DNA of 34,284 bases from a virus. The DNA is taken from IMG/VR virus record IMGVR_UViG_3300027801_000082, positions 1-34,284 of that record; one strand, 5' to 3'. Below the pieces are notes generated by a model that ran no database searches, was not told where the DNA came from, and saw only the letters and a program-made list of their open reading frames with translations. Positions 3,867-34,273 of the stretch are shown here, one piece after another (within the stretch, counting starts at the first letter, position 1; every line of letters begins with the position of its first letter). Made by a program: the position numbers and the translations under genes.

Positions 3867-4703
3867 TTAAAACTCCGATAAGTTCTCTGTTAGGTTTTTT
3901 AATCTATGTTCTACAAAATATGTAAGTAATCGTTTTCTATCTCCAACATGTGGTTTCTCGAACTGATTAGATATATTTATACGAATTGTACTAGGAATTT
4001 CACCCAAATCAATTAATTGTTTGTTTCTATTGAAATTACGTAACATTTCATTATTACAAAACATACTTGGTTCCAAATCAAACCAAGCAGAAACCTTCTT
4101 CTTAGATATTGGAGTTTGTCTCCTTCCTTCATCAACAAGCACATTATCATCCGATAAAATATTTGGAACACCATCTCCCACATCACCTCTTATAAGTTTT
4201 TCATGAAGTGACCACTTAGCATCTCCGTCAATAAACTTCTTTTGTATAGGGGAATATTGTCGAACATTAAATTGGTGGAGTTGAATAAAGTCTTTGTCAC
4301 TTGACAAGATCAAAGTTCTCTCACTAGATAGTTCTACTAAGACAGCGATAATATCATCAGCTTCAGCTTTTTCAACTTGTAAAACTTTATATGGAAACCA
4401 CTCTATTAATTCAGCTTTCAATACGTTTAAACTTTCGTATAGATTTTGCCAATCAATATGAGAATTAGAGCTTCTCGCCTTTTTTCTTGATGCTTTATAA
4501 TTCGGAAAGAGTTCTTTCCGCCAAGATTTTCGGTCATCACAACACAAAACCAATTCACCATATTCACTAGCAAACTTAGTTCTATATTGTCGTAGTGAAT
4601 TTAATACCGATGGCCTCAACGTATCCATACTAGTATCACCATACTTTCCTGCTGTCATATATGAAGCAATAAAGATTTGTGAAAAATCAACTAATAGTGC
4701 CAT
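3867..4703 (-). CDS. rnh: RNase H / 5'-3' flap exonuclease (T4 Rnh-like)
   Basis: 278 aa. It aligns by eye over its length with T4 RNase H: LLVDFSQIF near the start, a LVLCCDDRKSWRKELFPNYK block, ADDIIAVLVE with metal-binding Asp residues, SSDKDFIQLH, RGDVGDGVPNIL, and a C-terminus ending YFVEHRLKNLTENLSEF, like KLTNSINEF in T4. The enzyme removes RNA primers and adjoining DNA from lagging-strand fragments. The H3TH motif region is recognisable. It overlaps the upstream glycosyltransferase gene by 17 bases. Confidence 0.92.
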   Translation of the reverse strand: MALLVDFSQIFIASYMTAGKYGDTSMDTLRPSVLNSLRQYRTKFASEYGELVLCCDDRKSWRKELFPNYKASRKKARSSNSHIDWQNLYESLNVLKAELIEWFPYKVLQVEKAEADDIIAVLVELSSERTLILSSDKDFIQLHQFNVRQYSPIQKKFIDGDAKWSLHEKLIRGDVGDGVPNILSDDNVLVDEGRRQTPISKKKVSAWFDLEPSMFCNNEMLRNFNRNKQLIDLGEIPSTIRINISNQFEKPHVGDRKRLLTYFVEHRLKNLTENLSEF

Positions 4704-6991: not shown

Positions 6992-7078
6992 TGGTGGGGG
7001 AAATAGGATTCGCACCTACTCAGGCATAAGCCACCAGATTTACAGTCTGGCCCAACTCTCTCGCTTTGGCGTTCCCCC
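6992..7078 (-). tRNA. tRNA-Tyr (GUA), CCA encoded
   Basis: 87 nt. Acceptor GGGGGAA pairs with TTCCCCC (6996-7002). The anticodon arm is CCAGA-CTGTAAA-TCTGG, giving anticodon GUA. The long variable arm is typical of bacterial tRNA-Tyr. The T-arm is GTAGG-TGCGAAT-CCTAT. CCA is encoded at 6992-6994. Phage tRNAs usually compensate for codon differences with the host. Confidence 0.95.
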
Positions 7079-7823: not shown

Positions 7824-7879
7824 AATCAATCTCGTATTCAGGTTTGTTGGAAAGGGTTAATCCCTAACCTTCATGGACC

Positions 7880-7908
7880 ATTATATCACAGGTAGCTCAA
7901 GAAGTCAA
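7880..7908 (-). promoter_or_regulatory. Early-module promoter 1 with hairpin leader
   Basis: TTGACT (7903-7908), 17-bp spacer, TATAAT (7880-7885), preceded by TATAAACAC. The leader reads GGTCCATGAAGG, then AGGG-ATTAA-CCCT, then TTTCCAACAAACCT and the RBS. The same module recurs eleven more times in the window. The -35 lies in sequence just past the metalloprotease stop. Confidence 0.9.
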
Positions 7909-7919
7909 GTGTTTATACA

Positions 7920-8435
7920 TTATAAATTCATTCCCATGTCTTTTTCTATATTTTTCCATCTCTCCATGAAAGCATACATCAAACCTCGCTCTCGGCCGTG
8001 GGCTTCTATTTCAAATGGTTGTTCAAAATATTCATCAAAATTATCTGGTGAGTAAAAAGTTTTCTGATATAAGAATCCATTGTTAACAGGTTTGAGTTCG
8101 CCCATTACATATTGCTTAACATGAACCAGTTCGTGAGCAAGAAGTCTAAGAATTGCATGACTCCATTCAGTATCGGTCAGAGTTCTATTAAAGTCATCTA
8201 TCTCAGCACGATGGGGGTCTATTATAATTTTAAATTCTCTAGGTTTTTTTGGATTGGTAAATTCGGATAGTTTAGCTTCACCATTTACTACATGGTGCTT
8301 CAAATGAATATTGAGTGTGATATTATTTCGTAATCGTGTGGAAGGAACGAGTCTGAACATAGCAAACTCGCCCATAGCATAGATTGCAGCACGGAATTTG
8401 ATATCAATATTTCTGGCGTGTAAATTTATATTCAT
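7920..8435 (-). CDS. Zinc metalloprotease-like protein (HExxH)
   Basis: 171 aa. The zincin motif lies in LLAHELVHVKQYVMGEL (HELVH) at about residue 103, followed 40 residues later by FEQPFEIEAHGRERG, where a Glu could be the third zinc ligand as in SprT-like or M48-like enzymes. The N-terminal part is beta-rich. Soluble, no signal peptide. It may cleave host or virion proteins; the exact peptidase family is not clear. The ATG follows AAGAGATTATATT. Confidence 0.75.
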   Translation of the reverse strand: MNINLHARNIDIKFRAAIYAMGEFAMFRLVPSTRLRNNITLNIHLKHHVVNGEAKLSEFTNPKKPREFKIIIDPHRAEIDDFNRTLTDTEWSHAILRLLAHELVHVKQYVMGELKPVNNGFLYQKTFYSPDNFDEYFEQPFEIEAHGRERGLMYAFMERWKNIEKDMGMNL

Positions 8436-8783: not shown

Positions 8784-9473
8784 TTACCAACCTAGTTCTT
8801 TTAATTTTGTGTTATCTGCACATGTACTGATTGATTCACCTGTAACTTCTTTAATCGGTAAAGATTTAGTATATCCTACACTACTCAAAAAATCAACATT
8901 TTTTATTGACTGGCCATTTCCTACTTCGTAGAGTTCATTACTATCACCTTTTTCCATAATCAGTTTCACTGCTCTACACACATCATCAATATGGGTATAG
9001 TCTCTACTCTGATTAGTTATATACTCCAATTTATCATCTTTGCTTAATCCATACAACATATTCTTTCTGTAATTTTTACCACCCCATACAGTGAAGAATC
9101 TCATGATTGTACAGTTCTTAGGTTTCAATAATTCACAAGCATATTTTGACATTGCATAAGGACTTGCTAATTCACCAACAGCAGATGTTGAGGCAAATAG
9201 TATTTTAGTTTTTGTGGAAGAATAGGCATCAAATATTCTAGTGGTACTTAAAATATTATTTGAAAAATATTGGTGGGGGTTCTTAATACTTTCACGGACA
9301 CCTGTAAGTGAAGCTAAATGTATAACAAAATCAACATCTATAAATTCAGATAAAGAGCAATCAACTAAATCTATTGGTTTATCTATACCAAATAATTTAT
9401 AATCTGATTTTAACCAATCCCAGAGATTAGAACCAATATAACCAGAATGTCCAGTTATTAATATTTTTTTCAT
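8784..9473 (-). CDS. NAD-dependent epimerase/dehydratase (extended SDR, UDP-sugar type)
   Basis: 229 aa. MKKILITGHSGYIGSNLWDWL has the Rossmann GxxGxxG. VIHLAS is the usual strand-4 motif. The catalytic Ser lies in FASTSAVGE, and SPYAMSKYACE carries YxxxK. RDYTHIDDVCRAV matches the RDYxHVxDV motif of UDP-glucose/UDP-glucuronate 4-epimerases. The protein is shorter than the usual 310-340 aa, with part of the C-terminal sugar-binding domain missing. It probably makes a nucleotide sugar for virion or surface glycosylation. It overlaps the upstream gene by ATGA. Confidence 0.88.
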   Translation of the reverse strand: MKKILITGHSGYIGSNLWDWLKSDYKLFGIDKPIDLVDCSLSEFIDVDFVIHLASLTGVRESIKNPHQYFSNNILSTTRIFDAYSSTKTKILFASTSAVGELASPYAMSKYACELLKPKNCTIMRFFTVWGGKNYRKNMLYGLSKDDKLEYITNQSRDYTHIDDVCRAVKLIMEKGDSNELYEVGNGQSIKNVDFLSSVGYTKSLPIKEVTGESISTCADNTKLKELGW

Positions 9474-20044: not shown

Positions 20045-20098
20045 AATCAATCTCTTTCAGGTTAGTTGGAAGGGGTTAATCCCCTACCTTCATGGACC

Positions 20099-20127
20099 AT
20101 TATATCATGGGTAGGTCAGGAAGTCAA
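20099..20127 (-). promoter_or_regulatory. Early-module promoter 8 with extended leader hairpin
   Basis: TTGACT (20122-20127), 17-bp spacer, TATAAT (20099-20104). The leader hairpin is AGGGG-ATTAA-CCCCT, one pair longer than in promoter 1: both arms change together. Confidence 0.9.
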
Positions 20128-20151
20128 GTGTTTATTCAAACTTTAAATGAA

Positions 20152-20229: not shown

Positions 20230-21783
20230 TTAACTACAAACCTTCTCCGAGAATTTTCCCATCCGCAAAAGTTGTTTGAACTCATCTCCTCCCATATTGG
20301 ATTTTTTGAGATTATTAGCGATAGAAGTAATCACTAAATTATGAGTTTCTGTTACTCCACCCATTTTAATTCCCCATGAACGTGGAATGTAATGATCACC
20401 CGCAGCATCTGCGTAGTCTAAAGGAAGCCCAGTGTAGTAATCTGTCTTCCCCTGTTCTATCCATTTCTGATGCTTCTGAGTATCGGAAAAGGTATCATTG
20501 GGATCAATTACAATAATTCCAAAACCTTCTGGATCCTTACTGAATTCGTGATCTAGAATCGTACAAATAGTTCCAATCGCATTCGCGTTCTTACCATTAA
20601 ACAAGTTATTAAATTCTGGTAATACTGATCCATTTAATTGGGTTATACCACCTTTAATCGCGGCAACTACTTGATCCGGACTATCCCATTTTTCATAGAC
20701 TTCAAAGAATTTCTTAACATAAGTTCCAGCAATGATTTTGCCGTATTTACTCTTAAGTTCGTCAGCATATAACACTAACATTAACGACTTCATAGAGTTC
20801 ATCTTGTTTGCGTACGACACATTTGCCGCTACAAGAACCTCATGTGCTAGATTCAAAAGAGAATCGATTTTCTTTTTATCCGTGAATCCATTTTTATATA
20901 TTCCATTTCTCTGTACATCTTTCCACCATTCCGTCAAATGTGTTTGACCCTTAATTCCTCCACGAAAGTCTGCAGACTTAAGATAGATGAGCTCAGTGAG
21001 CCATTCGTCCATTTCCATTCGACCACCTAAACTAATATTGAAAAGGTTCATTACTTGCTTTTCTTTAGTAGTTCCTGGATTTAAAGTCATCCTAGCAAAA
21101 AGTGGGTGTAAAGGCATTGAGCCTATTGGTCTTACTTTGTCTCTAACATATGTAGAAACTGGCCCAAGAACAGCATTTCTGATTTCTTGGGGTTTCATTT
21201 GAGTTACATTATTGAGAAGTTCAGTAAACAAATCTGAGGTTTCTTCGTCTGAGAGATTTTCATACCAGCGACACCTTACCCCGTAATTTATAATACGGTT
21301 GTACATAGCTGGTTCTTTATCTTTCAGATCCCTAATGTTCATTCCACCAAGATTTACGTTGGTTTCTCCTGTATTGATAATAAAATTAGATGGGAGACAA
21401 AACTTATCATCCAAGAAGCGAAGTATCGCCATTACACGTTGTTGTCCATCTATTATTTGAATCTTCCAGACATTACCCTTACGTTTTACTCTCATGTGAA
21501 TTTCAGGAACTGACTTATAATCATTTCCCAAGATAGTATGTAGAATTTTTACTTCAAAGTCTAATGAAGCAACCCTTTCTCTCTGAAAGGCTCGATTTTG
21601 AGTGTCGAGAGTGGCGAATTCGCCTGGAGCAACTCCACCAGTACCAGCAACGGCGGATTTTAGCCAACTAACTTCTGATAGCCCAGAAAAGCTTTGGTTT
21701 TTGTCAAGGGGAGTCGGGGTGGGGTTAATGTAATCACCAAGCATTGATGGTGTTACAACTACTAAATCATTTTTCTGTTTCAT
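20230..21783 (-). CDS. DUF262-HNH nuclease (GmrSD-like)
   Basis: 517 aa. The DUF262/ParB-like nucleotide-binding core is at about residues 110-125 (IQIIDGQQRVMAILRFL; IDGQQR is diagnostic). A long helical middle follows. At about 465-500, YYTGLPLDYADAAGDHYIPRSWGI and THNLVIT give an HNH/DUF1524-like site (DHxxP...HN). GmrSD proteins are type IV restriction enzymes cutting glycosylated DNA. In a phage such a protein may attack competitors or host DNA. It has its own promoter and leader hairpin. Confidence 0.78.
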   Translation of the reverse strand: MKQKNDLVVVTPSMLGDYINPTPTPLDKNQSFSGLSEVSWLKSAVAGTGGVAPGEFATLDTQNRAFQRERVASLDFEVKILHTILGNDYKSVPEIHMRVKRKGNVWKIQIIDGQQRVMAILRFLDDKFCLPSNFIINTGETNVNLGGMNIRDLKDKEPAMYNRIINYGVRCRWYENLSDEETSDLFTELLNNVTQMKPQEIRNAVLGPVSTYVRDKVRPIGSMPLHPLFARMTLNPGTTKEKQVMNLFNISLGGRMEMDEWLTELIYLKSADFRGGIKGQTHLTEWWKDVQRNGIYKNGFTDKKKIDSLLNLAHEVLVAANVSYANKMNSMKSLMLVLYADELKSKYGKIIAGTYVKKFFEVYEKWDSPDQVVAAIKGGITQLNGSVLPEFNNLFNGKNANAIGTICTILDHEFSKDPEGFGIIVIDPNDTFSDTQKHQKWIEQGKTDYYTGLPLDYADAAGDHYIPRSWGIKMGGVTETHNLVITSIANNLKKSNMGGDEFKQLLRMGKFSEKVCS

Positions 21784-21932: not shown

Positions 21933-22085
21933 TTATCCATTCCACCATTTTCCTATTCTACCACCATAGAGAGATATTTCTTCATGGCCATTGTGGAACA
22001 TTTTAGCAACTTGCTTAAATGCTTTATTCTTATCACTTGTTCTATAGACTACTTCGTTTTCAAGTTTTATGTGATACATTTTCAT
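21933..22085 (-). CDS. Small protein downstream of glutaredoxin (50 aa)
   Basis: MKMYHIKLENEVVYRTSDKN, then KAFKQVAKMFHNGHEEISLY and GGRIGKWWNG. A beta-helix-beta pattern. Its ATG overlaps the glutaredoxin stop (ATGA), so it is translated only if ribosomes finish that gene. Function unknown. Confidence 0.6.
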   Translation of the reverse strand: MKMYHIKLENEVVYRTSDKNKAFKQVAKMFHNGHEEISLYGGRIGKWWNG

Positions 22086-22339
22086 TCACTTTCTTTCATT
22101 GTTTTTATATCTCTTATCATAGCTTCGACTTCTGTAAATCCTCCTATCAAGATATCATCAATTACTACTTGTGGTACTGTTCTAATGGGGATACCAAACT
22201 TCTCACTAAGTTCTCCAACCACCAATGCAATTGGAATTTCCTCTACAGTGTAATTATTTTCTTGGAGTAAATCCTTTACTCTAGCACACCATGTTCAATT
22301 AGGTCCCGTATATATGATTGCTACGTTGATATTCTTCAT
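22082..22339 (-). CDS. Glutaredoxin with in-frame UGA at the first catalytic Cys (putative selenoprotein)
   Basis: Reading from ATG 22339 (AAGGA upstream), 85 codons give MKNINVAIIYTGPN-(UGA)-TWCARVKDLL, then TVEEIPIA, a TVPQVVIDD cis-Pro motif and IGGFTEVEAM: a complete glutaredoxin/NrdH-like fold. The only interruption is UGA at codon 15 (22295-22297), exactly where CxxC has its first Cys. About 20 bases after it lies a perfect hairpin GAGTAAA-GGA-TTTACTC (22265-22281) with G in the apical loop, as in bacterial SECIS elements. No alternative start lies shortly after the UGA. A point mutation or sequence error of a Cys codon is the alternative. Confidence 0.75.
22265..22281 (-). promoter_or_regulatory. 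SECIS-like hairpin in the glutaredoxin gene
   Basis: 7-bp perfect stem with a GGA loop, positioned so that 20 bases separate the UGA from the loop. Known bacterial SECIS elements lie within the reading frame at similar distance with a G in the first loop positions, where SelB binds. It also encodes RVKDLL, so chance is possible. Confidence 0.5.
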
Positions 22340-22351
22340 TTTTGTATTTCC

Positions 22352-22534
22352 TTAATCTGCCGATAGTGCTATTGATGCTTCTTCCACTAATCCAGCTTCT
22401 CGTTTTGCAAAACTATATCCTTCAGAATATGATTCAGAAATCAATTTTGTTAGAGCCTCAACAGCATCAGTTGTCTCTTCACAATGAAGAGCATATTCAA
22501 CTATCTCAGTTATTCTTTTTTCAGTCGGTGTCAT
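22352..22534 (-). CDS. Small acidic helical protein (60 aa)
   Basis: Start chosen at MTPTEKRITEIVEYALHCEE because its ATG overlaps the upstream stop (ATGA). Helical and acidic, ending GLVEEASIALSAD. Third gene of the transcript from promoter 9. Confidence 0.65.
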   Translation of the reverse strand: MTPTEKRITEIVEYALHCEETTDAVEALTKLISESYSEGYSFAKREAGLVEEASIALSAD

Positions 22535-23012: not shown

Positions 23013-23067
23013 AGTCAATCTCTTTTGAGGTTTGTTGGAAAGGGTTAATCCCTAACCTTCATGGACC

Positions 23068-23096
23068 ATTATACAGCAAAACGGTCAGGAAGTCAA
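23068..23096 (-). promoter_or_regulatory. Early-module promoter 9
   Basis: TTGACT (23091-23096), 17-bp spacer, TATAAT (23068-23073). The leader carries AGGG-ATTAA-CCCT and TTTCCAACAAACCTCAAAAG before the RBS, as in promoters 1 and 10. Confidence 0.9.
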
Positions 23097-23174
23097 GGGT
23101 TTATAGTCAATCATTTCTTTTAAACTTCTGTTTAAACTTAAATCAATGTTATCCGCCATGAATATATGACTCAT
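23085..23174 (-). CDS. 29-aa peptide, truncated LSLN paralogue
   Basis: MSHIFMADNIDLSLNRSLKE and MIDYKPLTS. The ATG overlaps the upstream stop (ATGA). IDLSLNRSL is identical to the gene upstream, so this looks like a partial duplication that now ends inside promoter 9. Confidence 0.45.
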   Translation of the reverse strand: MSHIFMADNIDLSLNRSLKEMIDYKPLTS

Positions 23175-23740: not shown

Positions 23741-23795
23741 AGTCAATCTCTTTTGAGGTTTGTTGGAAAGGGTTAATCCCTAACCTTCATGGACC

Positions 23796-23824
23796 ATTAT
23801 ATCATGGGTAGGTCAGAAAGTCAA
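23796..23824 (-). promoter_or_regulatory. Early-module promoter 10
   Basis: TTGACT (23819-23824), 17-bp spacer, TATAAT (23796-23801), with the standard leader hairpin. Confidence 0.9.
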
Positions 23825-23828
23825 GTGT

Positions 23829-23993
23829 TTATATAAAGTTTTTAAGTTCTTTTTCAAGTCTCGCGATTATCACATCTTTTCTCGCGATTATCACATCTTT
23901 TTCGTCAAGCCATTCTTTTAGAAACTCTATGTGAATTTTTTCAGCTGGAAATTCTGGATTCCAATCATGTTCTTCTATGTTATCTTTTTTCAT
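23829..23993 (-). CDS. Small early protein with duplicated KDVIIAR (54 aa)
   Basis: Start at MKKDNIEEHDWNPEFPAEKI after GAGATTGATT. The C-terminal helix contains KDVIIAR twice in tandem, encoded by a 21-base duplication around 23860-23905, which lengthens the helix by two turns. Follows promoter 11. Confidence 0.65.
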   Translation of the reverse strand: MKKDNIEEHDWNPEFPAEKIHIEFLKEWLDEKDVIIARKDVIIARLEKELKNFI

Positions 23994-24048
23994 AATCAAT
24001 CTCTTTTGAGGTTTGTTGGAAGGGGTTAATCCCCTACCTTCATGGACC

Positions 24049-24077
24049 ATTATATCACAGGTAGCTCAAGAAGTCAA
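24049..24077 (-). promoter_or_regulatory. Early-module promoter 11
   Basis: TTGACT (24072-24077), 17-bp spacer identical to promoter 1, TATAAT (24049-24054). The leader hairpin is the longer AGGGG-ATTAA-CCCCT form. Confidence 0.9.
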
Positions 24078-24195
24078 GTGTTTATAAAAACTTTTTTCAG
24101 AGTGAATGTCATGGCGGCGGGTCGCACCTTTTTTCTTTCCCACTATCTTACCTGTGGGGTAAACATTTCCATGAGCCAGGCGGTATTCACCTCAT
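24066..24195 (-). pseudogene. Small gene with a frame break after the second codon
   Basis: ATG-AGG-TGA at 24195 stops at once, but the next frame reads EYRLAHGNVYPTGKIVGKKK, then GATRRHDIHSEKSFYKHLTS and stops inside promoter 11. This is strongly protein-like. AGGGAAGA precedes the ATG. One base fewer would give MSEYRLAHG, so a one-base insertion, a sequence error or a +1 frameshift at AGG-UGA are the options. Confidence 0.4.
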
Positions 24196-27151: not shown

Positions 27152-27159
27152 TATTTATA
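27152..27159 (-). promoter_or_regulatory. T4-type late box (TATAAATA)
   Basis: An exact TATAAATA on the minus strand 36 bases upstream of the start at 27116, just past the end of the RNR gene. It could add late expression to the genes downstream. Chance occurrence in AT-rich DNA is possible. Confidence 0.35.
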
Positions 27160-29056
27160 TAATTTCACATGAATCACCTGAGCAAGCAACTGTCTGAGCC
27201 CCTGTAGTTTGGTCTTCTGTTTCAAATCTAGATAATTGAGAATAATCAATTTTTGGAAAAACTTTAGCCATACTGTTATAAGTTGCTTCATCAATTTCTT
27301 CATAGGGTGCTAATTGATATATGTGATCATTTTTCGGTAGAAAACTTACCCCCACTATATCATCAAAATTTTCATATACAAAATTACCTATTTTAAACCA
27401 TTCATCAGCATTTACATATATGGTTGCTGATACTGTATGTTCAGTATAATTATGCTTGATCTTCAACCATTGCTTTAATTGATCTATAGCAGTAACATCT
27501 TTTACTAGTATAGAACCTTCGGGTGCTTTTACTGGAAACTCAACTACCCATGTTAGTGCTGTTTCTTCTGGTTGTCCTACCTCAGGATAAAAGGTAACGT
27601 TTTGCTCTTTCATCATTTTATAAAGAGGATCAGTAGCAGATATCCTTACTCTTCGTATATAGTACTCCGCAAATCGTGGATGAAATCCAGAAGCAGAATT
27701 AACTAAGATAGATGCTGTACCTGAAGGTTTAGTAGTAGTAATAGAAACACTTCGATTTATTTTTAATCGTTCTGCTATTTCTACGTTTACTCCTATTGAA
27801 TAATCTCTTAATGACTGTAAGTTCTCTGGAGTTAGGATATCTGGATTATCCATTTGTCCTGTGAGAGATACACCCAATAATCTTTCTTCTTCTGCGTTCT
27901 TTTTCCAATCACCATGTAAGTCATTCAAAAGAGTAAAATCGGTCATTGAGGATTGTATTGTTCCAATCATAGTCGCAATTCGTATCTTCTCCATCAATGT
28001 CTCAAGAGTGTCATCTGCACGCACAACTACTTCTGAGAGGTTACAGAACCCTCTAGGACGTAAGATAATCTCACCACATGGGTTAGTCGTCCAATCATTT
28101 CTCTTACGTCTTCTTTTTGGAATAAGATTATTAATTGAACTTCGATTGAATATTCCACGTTCACCAGTACCACTTTGAGCAAGGGCTAACCACTCTTTCA
28201 TAAACTCAACAGAAGATGGTTTTTCATCATATATAGCACTATTGTTACTCATAGCTCTGTGACTATTTGTGTGCCAAAATTGTCCCTGTTTAGCATCTCT
28301 CATTCCAACATCATAGAGATCAGATAGAGTAATAATAGATGAACGTCTAACACCACCGACAACCACACTCGCAGCAATTTTAGTTACAATGTCAAAAGCG
28401 TTCAATGAACTTAACCTACGATCTCTATGTGCCTCTGCCATGTGCTTGATAAAATGTAACGTTTCATCCAATGGGCCAGGGCCGGATGATCTACCACCAA
28501 AAGTTTTAAGTCTCGCTCCTTGTGGTCTTAGTTTTGATAGATCCCATTCAATGGCATAACCATCCCACATTGCTTGACAACATTCCAATGTACCTAATGC
28601 CCAACCTTCTTTTGAATCTTCGAATACAATAGTTTTTGTTTCACCATTCAATTTTTTTACTTTTGGTAGTTTTTCAATGTATCTTCTGGAAACATCAATA
28701 CCTACACCACAACCACTCATTAGCAAGAAATAAACTTCAGCAAAAGAATGTAGTGTATCAATAGGTACTGTGGAACAATTATAAATTGCTACATTGTTCA
28801 ACTCAGCAGGTTTTCCCGCTGTCCACATCAAACGCATAGAGGGCATTACATGCATTCCATGAATGTTTTGGTGAATTGCTTCGTAGTCCGATTTTTTTAG
28901 TTTATTTTTACTAACTTTTTTGAAGAATGTTACTACTCTATCAACAGTTTCTTCCCATGTCTCTCTTCGATCCTTTTCATCTGTCCATCTGGAATACGTG
29001 CGCATATATACAAATTCAGCCAAATCATTTTCAAACACATAATTGTCTTCAGTCAT
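27155..29056 (-). CDS. nrdJ: Class II (B12-dependent) ribonucleotide reductase, monomeric type
   Basis: 633 aa. NCSTVPIDTL holds the first redox Cys. NPCGEIILRPRGFCNLSE holds the N-C-E triad and the second redox Cys eleven residues later, the spacing of Lactobacillus RtpR. TTKPSGTAS is the phosphate-binding loop. The C-terminal tail ACSGDSCEII has a mobile Cys pair for re-reduction. It makes deoxynucleotides using adenosylcobalamin, without oxygen or a small subunit. The tail Cys pair needs a thioredoxin or glutaredoxin, for which the UGA-containing glutaredoxin gene at 22082 is a natural candidate. Confidence 0.9.
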   Translation of the reverse strand: MTEDNYVFENDLAEFVYMRTYSRWTDEKDRRETWEETVDRVVTFFKKVSKNKLKKSDYEAIHQNIHGMHVMPSMRLMWTAGKPAELNNVAIYNCSTVPIDTLHSFAEVYFLLMSGCGVGIDVSRRYIEKLPKVKKLNGETKTIVFEDSKEGWALGTLECCQAMWDGYAIEWDLSKLRPQGARLKTFGGRSSGPGPLDETLHFIKHMAEAHRDRRLSSLNAFDIVTKIAASVVVGGVRRSSIITLSDLYDVGMRDAKQGQFWHTNSHRAMSNNSAIYDEKPSSVEFMKEWLALAQSGTGERGIFNRSSINNLIPKRRRKRNDWTTNPCGEIILRPRGFCNLSEVVVRADDTLETLMEKIRIATMIGTIQSSMTDFTLLNDLHGDWKKNAEEERLLGVSLTGQMDNPDILTPENLQSLRDYSIGVNVEIAERLKINRSVSITTTKPSGTASILVNSASGFHPRFAEYYIRRVRISATDPLYKMMKEQNVTFYPEVGQPEETALTWVVEFPVKAPEGSILVKDVTAIDQLKQWLKIKHNYTEHTVSATIYVNADEWFKIGNFVYENFDDIVGVSFLPKNDHIYQLAPYEEIDEATYNSMAKVFPKIDYSQLSRFETEDQTTGAQTVACSGDSCEII

Positions 29057-32552: not shown

Positions 32553-32560
32553 TATTTATA
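32553..32560 (-). promoter_or_regulatory. T4-type late promoter (TATAAATA)
   Basis: An exact late box on the minus strand, 23 bases from the start at 32530, with TTTAAAC below it. The position fits T4 late promoters, which have a -10 but no -35. Confidence 0.6.
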
Positions 32561-33233
32561 AATTACTAAGTCTGCACCTAATGAACAACTCACAAAAACC
32601 TTCTCTGAAATTTTGCCAAACTATGCCATTCCACCCAAATTGTTCTTTTACTATTGTTGTAAAACTCATAAAGATGGTAAGGTCTAATATAAATATCACC
32701 ATTGCACCAAGCATACCAAAAAGAAATGATGTATAAGACCACCGTATCCACCTATACTTAACATGCGAAAGAGTCTTACCACTAGTATACATTTCATTAG
32801 CTAATGCATCATATATTGTGTCATCAGTCATTAATGTTTCTGCATAACTCTCTTTATATTCTTCCAAATCCATCTGAGAGAAATGTCCAAAATAAAGTGG
32901 CTCAAAGTATGGTGATGTCTTATCTAAATTTCCATCTTCATCTTTTGGATAATCAGTATTGGGTATTATTGCTATTATTGCACACAATAATGATATGATA
33001 CAACAAACTGCAAAAAACATCAATGGATATTTCATTGCAGGATTATCTAATTCTGCAACCGTAACCGAGAATACAATCGCCGAAACTGTAATCATTATGT
33101 TGGCCTTTTGGTCAGCCATCTGATTCAGTCTCATCTGATTGGAGACATTTAATCTAAAAATGTTATCAACAGCAGTTCTATCTTCTGGTACGTTGTTGAA
33201 TATATTTTTCTTCCCACCCATCTTGTTATACAT
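32556..33233 (-). CDS. PycTM-like (Pycsar effector, DUF5706-type) membrane protein
   Basis: 225 aa. IFRLNVSNQMRLNQMADQKA and NIMITVSAIVFSVTVAEL match the first helix of the PycTM/DUF5706 family (RxNxxMADxKAxIxIxxxA). Hydrophobic helices lie at about 45-65, 70-92, 168-190 and 190-205, and a cytoplasmic acidic loop lies between. In bacterial Pycsar, such proteins bind cUMP or cCMP and disrupt the membrane. No pyrimidine cyclase is seen here. TAATG overlap with the binding-protein gene shows coupling. Confidence 0.7.
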   Translation of the reverse strand: MYNKMGGKKNIFNNVPEDRTAVDNIFRLNVSNQMRLNQMADQKANIMITVSAIVFSVTVAELDNPAMKYPLMFFAVCCIISLLCAIIAIIPNTDYPKDEDGNLDKTSPYFEPLYFGHFSQMDLEEYKESYAETLMTDDTIYDALANEMYTSGKTLSHVKYRWIRWSYTSFLFGMLGAMVIFILDLTIFMSFTTIVKEQFGWNGIVWQNFREGFCELFIRCRLSNL

Positions 33234-34273
33234 TATTTTAGTGGTGGTGCATATAACAGCCCACCATCCGAATATAACTTATTAAGACCTCTATCTAATC
33301 CTAATTTATTCTTGATGTTACGGTCATAAATCTCTTTGTAATTCCCAACATGTTTAATAATATTATATGACCAACCTGCATCCAATCCAAACTTAGCTCC
33401 AAGATTGGGATGGTCTGCTCCATTCTTTTCGCCCATAAATCGTTGAATGTTTGGGTCTATGTTCTCTATAAATGAATCTATATTCTTTGAGTTGATGCCC
33501 ATTTCTTCTGCAATGAATAGAACAAATACTGACCATCTTACTATGTCAGACCATTGTTGATCTCCATACTTTACAACAGGTCCCAATGGTTCTTTGGAGA
33601 TAAGTTCTGGAAGTATCATATGTCTATCGGGCTCTTTGAAACCTAATCTGTTAGATGCAAGACCAGACATATCAGTACCATACATATCACAATCACCAGC
33701 CAGATATATATTTTTAGCATTCTTGTCTGGTGGTACAGGAATAGGAATATAATTTATTTCATGTTTTGTGAAGAAATCTGCAATATTTTTTGCACCAGTT
33801 CCAGTACTACTGAAACAAATCTTTGCACCCTCTAGTTGTTTAGCAGAAGATACACCAAGTGTTTTTCTTACAATGAATCCCTGACCATCATAATATGTTG
33901 TTGGTAGAAACTCAAGTTTTTTAATTACATTTCGGGTAAAGGTATAAGTAGTGGCTGCTGAAAGAACATCAATAGTTCCATCTCTCAAAAATTCAAATCG
34001 TGTCTTTCCATTTGTTGCAATGAATTCAATTGCTTTTGCATCACCGAACATTGCTGCGGCGACTGCACGACAAATATCTACATCAAATCCTACAGGCTCT
34101 TCTCGTAATACTGAGAACCCTAGAAAGTCGATATTTGTACCACAAATAACTTTCCCCCTTGCCTTTACTCTTTGGTATGTGGAACCGAATGTTGGATTGT
34201 ATTCTGGTTTTTTAATAAAACTATCTCGTACCACCACCATTTTTTTAACTTTTTCCACTTCAGATAAAGTCAT
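33233..34273 (-). CDS. Amino-acid-binding protein (AapJ/BztA-like) without signal peptide
   Basis: 346 aa. VKARGKVICGTNIDFLGFSV, GFDVDICRAVAAAMFGDAKA and RFEFLRDGTIDVLSAATTYT are clear SBP family 3 blocks, matching AapJ-type general amino-acid binding proteins. The N-terminus MTLSEVEKVKKMVVVRDSFIKK is charged and cannot be a signal peptide. It may be truncated, re-fitted for the cytoplasm, or part of the virion. The start is near the window edge with weak RBS support. Confidence 0.82.
   Translation of the reverse strand: MTLSEVEKVKKMVVVRDSFIKKPEYNPTFGSTYQRVKARGKVICGTNIDFLGFSVLREEPVGFDVDICRAVAAAMFGDAKAIEFIATNGKTRFEFLRDGTIDVLSAATTYTFTRNVIKKLEFLPTTYYDGQGFIVRKTLGVSSAKQLEGAKICFSSTGTGAKNIADFFTKHEINYIPIPVPPDKNAKNIYLAGDCDMYGTDMSGLASNRLGFKEPDRHMILPELISKEPLGPVVKYGDQQWSDIVRWSVFVLFIAEEMGINSKNIDSFIENIDPNIQRFMGEKNGADHPNLGAKFGLDAGWSYNIIKHVGNYKEIYDRNIKNKLGLDRGLNKLYSDGGLLYAPPLK

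Follow-up and report, generated by a model that had tools for sequence, protein, structure and literature searches.

Does a glutaredoxin frame broken by a single in-frame UGA, on the minus strand of a 34,284-base IMG/VR virus record (the whole of which is called the window here), represent a damaged gene or one that is decoded with selenocysteine (Sec)? A first-pass annotation, made from the sequence alone, had favoured the second possibility. As a prediction that reading is upheld, by the presence of the TGA in two lineages, an identical hairpin segment downstream of it and purifying selection on the codons that follow, and we consider it very probable that the gene encodes a natural phage selenoprotein, a glutaredoxin in which Sec takes the place of the first Cys of the CxxC motif.

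The glutaredoxin gene and its predicted product

Translation of the frame at 22082-22339 (Table 1) gave MKNINVAIIYTGPN up to the UGA and TWCARVKDLLQENNYTVEEIPIALVVGELSEKFGIPIRTVPQVVIDDILIGGFTEVEAMIRDIKTMKESE from there to the terminal stop, the second part reading TWCARVKDLL...IPIRTVPQVVIDDILIGGF...ESE. The TGA was the sole interruption of the frame and aligned to the first Cys of CxxC, and the translation contained both TVPQ (the cis-Pro loop) and GGF (the GG motif). With the TGA treated as a residue, the product matched PF00462 (E=3.9e-10, 40.2 bits against a curated Pfam cut-off of 22.9) and PHROG 22 (4.4e-15), confirming the annotated complete glutaredoxin with UGA in place of the first CxxC Cys. 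An AF2 model of the product had the glutaredoxin (thioredoxin) fold with a mean pLDDT of 90.4; its structural neighbours were glutaredoxins of Francisella, Brucella, E. coli and others, with Clostridium cGrx2 (4tr0/4tr1) among the matches.

Table 1. Coordinates of the glutaredoxin locus and of selected further features of the window.
Feature	Position	Strand	Remarks
Glutaredoxin ORF	22082..22339	-	85 residues, Sec proposed at position 15 (UxxC); translation, PF00462, PHROG 22, AF2
Terminal TGA of glutaredoxin ORF	22082-22084	-	
In-frame UGA, proposed Sec codon	22295..22297	-	Alignment with first Cys of CxxC
SECIS-like hairpin GAGUAAA-GGA-UUUACUC	22265..22281	-	7 bp; loop GGA at 22272-22274
AAGGA, Shine-Dalgarno-like	22349..22353	-	9 nt before ATG; read directly from sequence
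Class II (B12-type) ribonucleotide reductase	27155..29056	-	C-terminal CSGDSC redox tail
Direct-repeat copies (examples)	7850-7927, 20069-20146, 23038-23115, 23766-23843, 24019-24096		

The UGA codon in related phages

Three further assemblies (contigs 3300046532_002666, 3300031687_000226 and 3300008954_000142) shared the TGA of the window at the corresponding codon, which argues against a sequencing error. Two close assemblies carried glutaredoxin copies 99% and 91% identical to that of the window (the 91% copy is L003 below), both with TGA at the site. Contig 3300008954_000142 (its loci are L151 and L161, the contig itself also G003) was found by a contig scan with a three-sequence glutaredoxin alignment. 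Its glutaredoxin, which reads MKNAIVYTGAG up to the TGA and VWCARVKDLLKENDYILEE... after it, was 49% identical to that of the window and had the rest of its frame intact. Proteins shared between this contig and the window were 34-67% identical, and its gene neighbours (tRNA nucleotidyltransferase, SET-like, PurN-like) differed from those in the window; judged by sequence, it belongs to another, though related, marine T4-like phage. No TGA-bearing copy contained a further stop or a frameshift.

At this site TGT or TGC was present in the other viral glutaredoxins that were examined, among them L152 and L010/L153, the nearest Cys homologues. Alignment with Cys glutaredoxins, a check proposed in the first-pass annotation, paired UGA with Cys at this position with homology on both sides, and the different stop codons or random breaks in related phages that it had named as contrary evidence did not appear, TGA being present in every close relative as well as in the 49% identical one. 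L010 and the window had one nearby gene in common, at 87% nucleotide identity. The phylogenetic tree nested the Cys forms L152 and L153 among the Sec sequences; support for this topology, which needs two changes, was moderate (87/65). A sequence-pattern scan matched 18 contigs, in which the only glutaredoxins were the three known ones, and no Sec glutaredoxins of the KPxU[PST]xCDR type were found by scanning.

A SECIS-like hairpin downstream of the UGA

The perfect 7-bp stem and GGA loop listed in the first-pass annotation were found at the position given there, with one amendment: the 20 nt quoted as the distance from the UGA lead to the start of the GGA loop, the stem itself beginning 13 nt after the codon. 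This agrees with the expected layout of a bacterial SECIS as in bSECISearch-type models (loop 16-37 nt from the UGA, G within the first two loop bases). Such a stem is more than would be expected by chance: among window ORFs of at least 100 aa, an all-Watson-Crick stem of at least 7 bp in SECIS geometry followed 49 of 5,863 codons (0.84%), or 0.27% in a stricter geometry, and when synonymous codons were resampled with the protein fixed the hairpin arose in 1.25% (window) and 0.9% (L151). A Watson-Crick hairpin of 7 bp in this geometry was present in both Sec lineages and in none of 49 distinct Cys glutaredoxins. The 21-nt segment that holds the hairpin, GCTAGAGTAAAGGATTTACTC, recurs unchanged in L151 and at an equal distance from the TGA; the blastn match between L151 and the window extended over only 62 nt of the glutaredoxin gene, centred on this segment, and the two genes agreed in 7 of 7 codons in the hairpin versus 13 of 28 at other shared residues (p=0.012).

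Other properties of the hairpin are less distinctive. Its folding energy was ordinary (z = -0.48 in the window, -0.31 in L151), and in L151 an alternative fold was preferred over it. The stem is identical in all Sec copies and, being invariant, receives no support from covariation. It forms a perfect helix without a bulged U in its upper stem, a feature of the E. coli fdhF SECIS that is not universal among bacterial SECIS elements. Rfam contained no known element at the site. Comparison of the window with L003 revealed a second invariant run of 61 nt in the glutaredoxin gene and longer runs in other genes, so that such runs alone do not prove SECIS constraint. The Cys homologues L152 and L153 keep AGA GTA AAG ... 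TTA CTY, which forms a weaker hairpin with most of the hairpin codons retained; part of the conservation is therefore due to common ancestry. Remnant SECIS-like structures after Cys codons are known from Sec-to-Cys losses in bacteria (PMC1794560). We infer that the hairpin is probably a working SECIS.

Selection on the frame and alternative explanations

Loss of function, or an error in sequencing, could have turned TGT or TGC into TGA and inactivated the glutaredoxin, only a 14-residue peptide being made. The TGA is indeed one base from either Cys codon and the closest relatives include Cys versions, but it is common to four assemblies from two lineages with 49% protein identity, no copy has another stop or a frameshift, and the motifs and the predicted fold are intact. 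The codons downstream are also under purifying selection: the window and L003 differ after the TGA by 15 substitutions, of which 10 affect third positions; 5 amino acids are replaced and no stop is created, and a neutral simulation of this comparison gave P values of 0.0001 to 0.0026 at transition biases of 1 to 8. A pseudogene or an error is thus a very unlikely explanation. An equally small probability attaches to the insertion of an amino acid other than Sec, through a changed code in the host (Trp, Gly or Cys) or low-level readthrough by a near-cognate tRNA. tRNA-Trp can read through UGA, and such readthrough is generally known. In the window, however, Trp is encoded by TGG, and several conserved genes (primase, RuvC-like, endolysin, glycosyltransferase and gp59-like) have TGA as their stop codon, in line with the initial judgement that a changed code was unlikely; among ORFs of at least 120 aa, the window and the second phage contig (3300008954_000142) each have 13 that end in TGA. 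On the coding strand of the window, the glutaredoxin was the only gene among the matches listed with an internal TGA convincingly aligned with Cys, a Sec/Cys screen of all loci having been swamped by antisense frames. Moreover, a glutaredoxin with Trp or Gly as its catalytic residue would be expected to lack dithiol activity.

Least probable of all is a regulatory short ORF or split gene, in which the UGA would end a 14-codon leader and translation would restart to give a glutaredoxin without its first strand. The upstream codons have a Shine-Dalgarno-like sequence of their own and a hairpin lies 3' of the stop, as such an arrangement might have, but the codons that separate the UGA from the second Cys of CxxC include no in-frame ATG, GTG or TTG, and the truncated product would be without the nucleophile and strand 1. 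Conservation also extends to the residues upstream (YTG..), which belong to the same fold. The sequence comparisons favour insertion of Sec at the UGA over these three explanations.

Phage identity and genome context

The gp61-like primase of the window was closest to those of cyanomyophages, the putative endonuclease to that of Methylophilales phage Melnitz and the class II ribonucleotide reductase (RNR) to those of roseophages (about 48%). The primase and RNR genes are found near each other and the endonuclease, an endolysin-like hydrolase and a two-piece tmRNA at a greater distance, and the gene layout of Melnitz, a member of the Kyanoviridae, is much like that of the window (PMC9004378). 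Based on these affinities and the Melnitz-like layout, the window is most likely a fragment of a marine T4-like phage.

Several other features were observed. The permuted two-piece tmRNA gene lies at 676-972 on the minus strand (Rfam RF04321, 89 bits), and another tmRNA was found in L101. The window encodes tRNA-Thr(TGT) and tRNA-Tyr(GTA); the latter (6995-7078, minus strand) has a long variable arm, was matched by Rfam and missed by ARAGORN, and had been considered as a tRNA-Sec before that assignment was rejected. A direct repeat of 78-107 nt (..CTTCATGGACCATTATATCACAGGTAGCTCAGGAAGTCAAG..) is present in nine copies between 7821 and 24096 and also occurs in L090 and L091; the copies are dispersed and apparently mostly intergenic, and may serve in RNA processing or as a phage promoter. 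A 517-aa protein (20230-21783, minus strand) encoded immediately 3' of the glutaredoxin operon showed a weak GmrSD N-terminal/DUF262 match. A protein matching PycTM (Pycsar effector, PF18967, 1.6e-22) and encoded at 32556-33233 on the minus strand adjoins an AapJ-like amino-acid-binding protein (33233-34273, minus strand), and the same pair is present in L161 (9845-10525 and 10522-11592; 56% and 67% identity). A phage-borne Pycsar-effector-like membrane protein looks unusual.

Selenocysteine machinery and host

Neither selB nor a tRNA-Sec above the cut-off was found in six phage contigs, all of which are fragments, and the simplest inference is therefore that SelA, SelB, SelC and SelD are supplied by the host. 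The plasmid proteins nearest to the substrate-binding protein at 33233-34273 were alphaproteobacterial, from Sinorhizobium/Ensifer (about 47%), and selABC are carried by some Alphaproteobacteria (PMC8124441). The first-pass annotation had expected the gene to reveal the host, an expectation that was not borne out: the 5' half of the phage tRNA-Thr had no match in a scan of genome contigs, tmRNA similarity pointed to no host, and a first genome contig scan with the glutaredoxin alignment likewise gave no match.

Proposed mechanism and function

In the mechanism that we propose, Sec would replace the nucleophilic first Cys of CxxC (UxxC) in a functional dithiol-type glutaredoxin. During infection, a complex of host SelB, GTP and Sec-tRNA(Sec) would bind the hairpin just 3' of the UGA and deliver Sec at this codon in competition with release factor 2, so that translation would yield a selenoprotein of 85 residues where termination would leave a peptide of 14. 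The product would most likely use glutathione to reduce the class II RNR of the phage, or host or phage disulfides, and Sec may speed the nucleophilic step of electron supply to RNR. Family knowledge suggests this role in electron supply, and the class II RNR is the likeliest partner of the glutaredoxin in the window phage. A role in iron-sulfur metabolism is an alternative, since an IscU/NifU_N protein is encoded in the second phage and an A-type Fe-S carrier in a Cys-bearing relative. In L161 the IscU/NifU_N protein (8002-8391, 1.6e-52) is accompanied by an IscA-like protein (8910-9266, recognised by eye, without a Pfam match); in L010 the A-type carrier (4273-4662) lies close upstream of the Cys glutaredoxin.

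Relation to known selenoproteins and significance

Sec-glutaredoxin (UxxC) is an accepted bacterial selenoprotein of few species (PMC13188914, PMC9312934), examples being Clostridium/Alkaliphilus oremlandii cGrx and the protein of Geobacter sulfurreducens (Kim et al. 2011, as listed in PMC13188914 and PMC9312934), and Sec-glutaredoxins were also found in an ocean survey (PMC2398784). The phage gene resembles the bacterial ones in belonging to PF00462 and in the position of its predicted Sec at the first CxxC residue. It differs from them in being encoded by a marine phage, in falling within the clade of phage glutaredoxins and in having the Sec machinery outside the same fragment. Glutaredoxins/NrdC of T4-like and jumbo phages (PHROG 22) are of the same family and have a probable role as RNR reductants, but those examined have Cys at the site, whereas window-type genes have UGA and a SECIS-like hairpin. 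Work on Sec in phage T7 concerned engineered, laboratory recoding of UAG, unlike the natural UGA described here (PMC8923235). In huge phages, Sec use was inferred from tRNA-Sec predictions, in a report from which the word selenoprotein is absent (PMC10747093).

In a survey from 2021, most of the protein families examined were reported to have few viral sequences or none (PMC9402790). The words phage and virus are absent from the Sec reviews PMC13188914 and PMC9312934 and occur in one irrelevant mention in the ocean survey PMC2398784. A literature phrase search, outside which many subscription papers lie, found no report of a natural phage selenoprotein, and priority is not proven by it. A gene caller would close the frame at the UGA, and phage Sec-glutaredoxins may have been missed for this reason. 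What appears to be new is that known biochemistry is predicted to occur in phages, and in two of their lineages among which Cys relatives are nested. Because the nested Cys relatives L152 and L153 carry a SECIS-like remnant, the sequences suggest that Sec/Cys exchange is ongoing within phages, where it possibly tracks switches between Sec-decoding and non-decoding hosts.

Somewhat less certain than the identity of the gene, though still rather likely, is that at least two lineages of marine T4-like phages actively use a Sec-glutaredoxin and that their redox or nucleotide metabolism partly depends on selenium and on the Sec machinery of the host. If this is true, natural phages would make use of the 21st amino acid, and one of their genes would require a trace element as well as a particular translation pathway of the host in order to work. 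The gene would then provide a genetic marker for host range, as hosts must decode Sec, as well as a simple case of Sec/Cys exchange among closely related viruses, and selenium in the ocean would be linked to phage replication.
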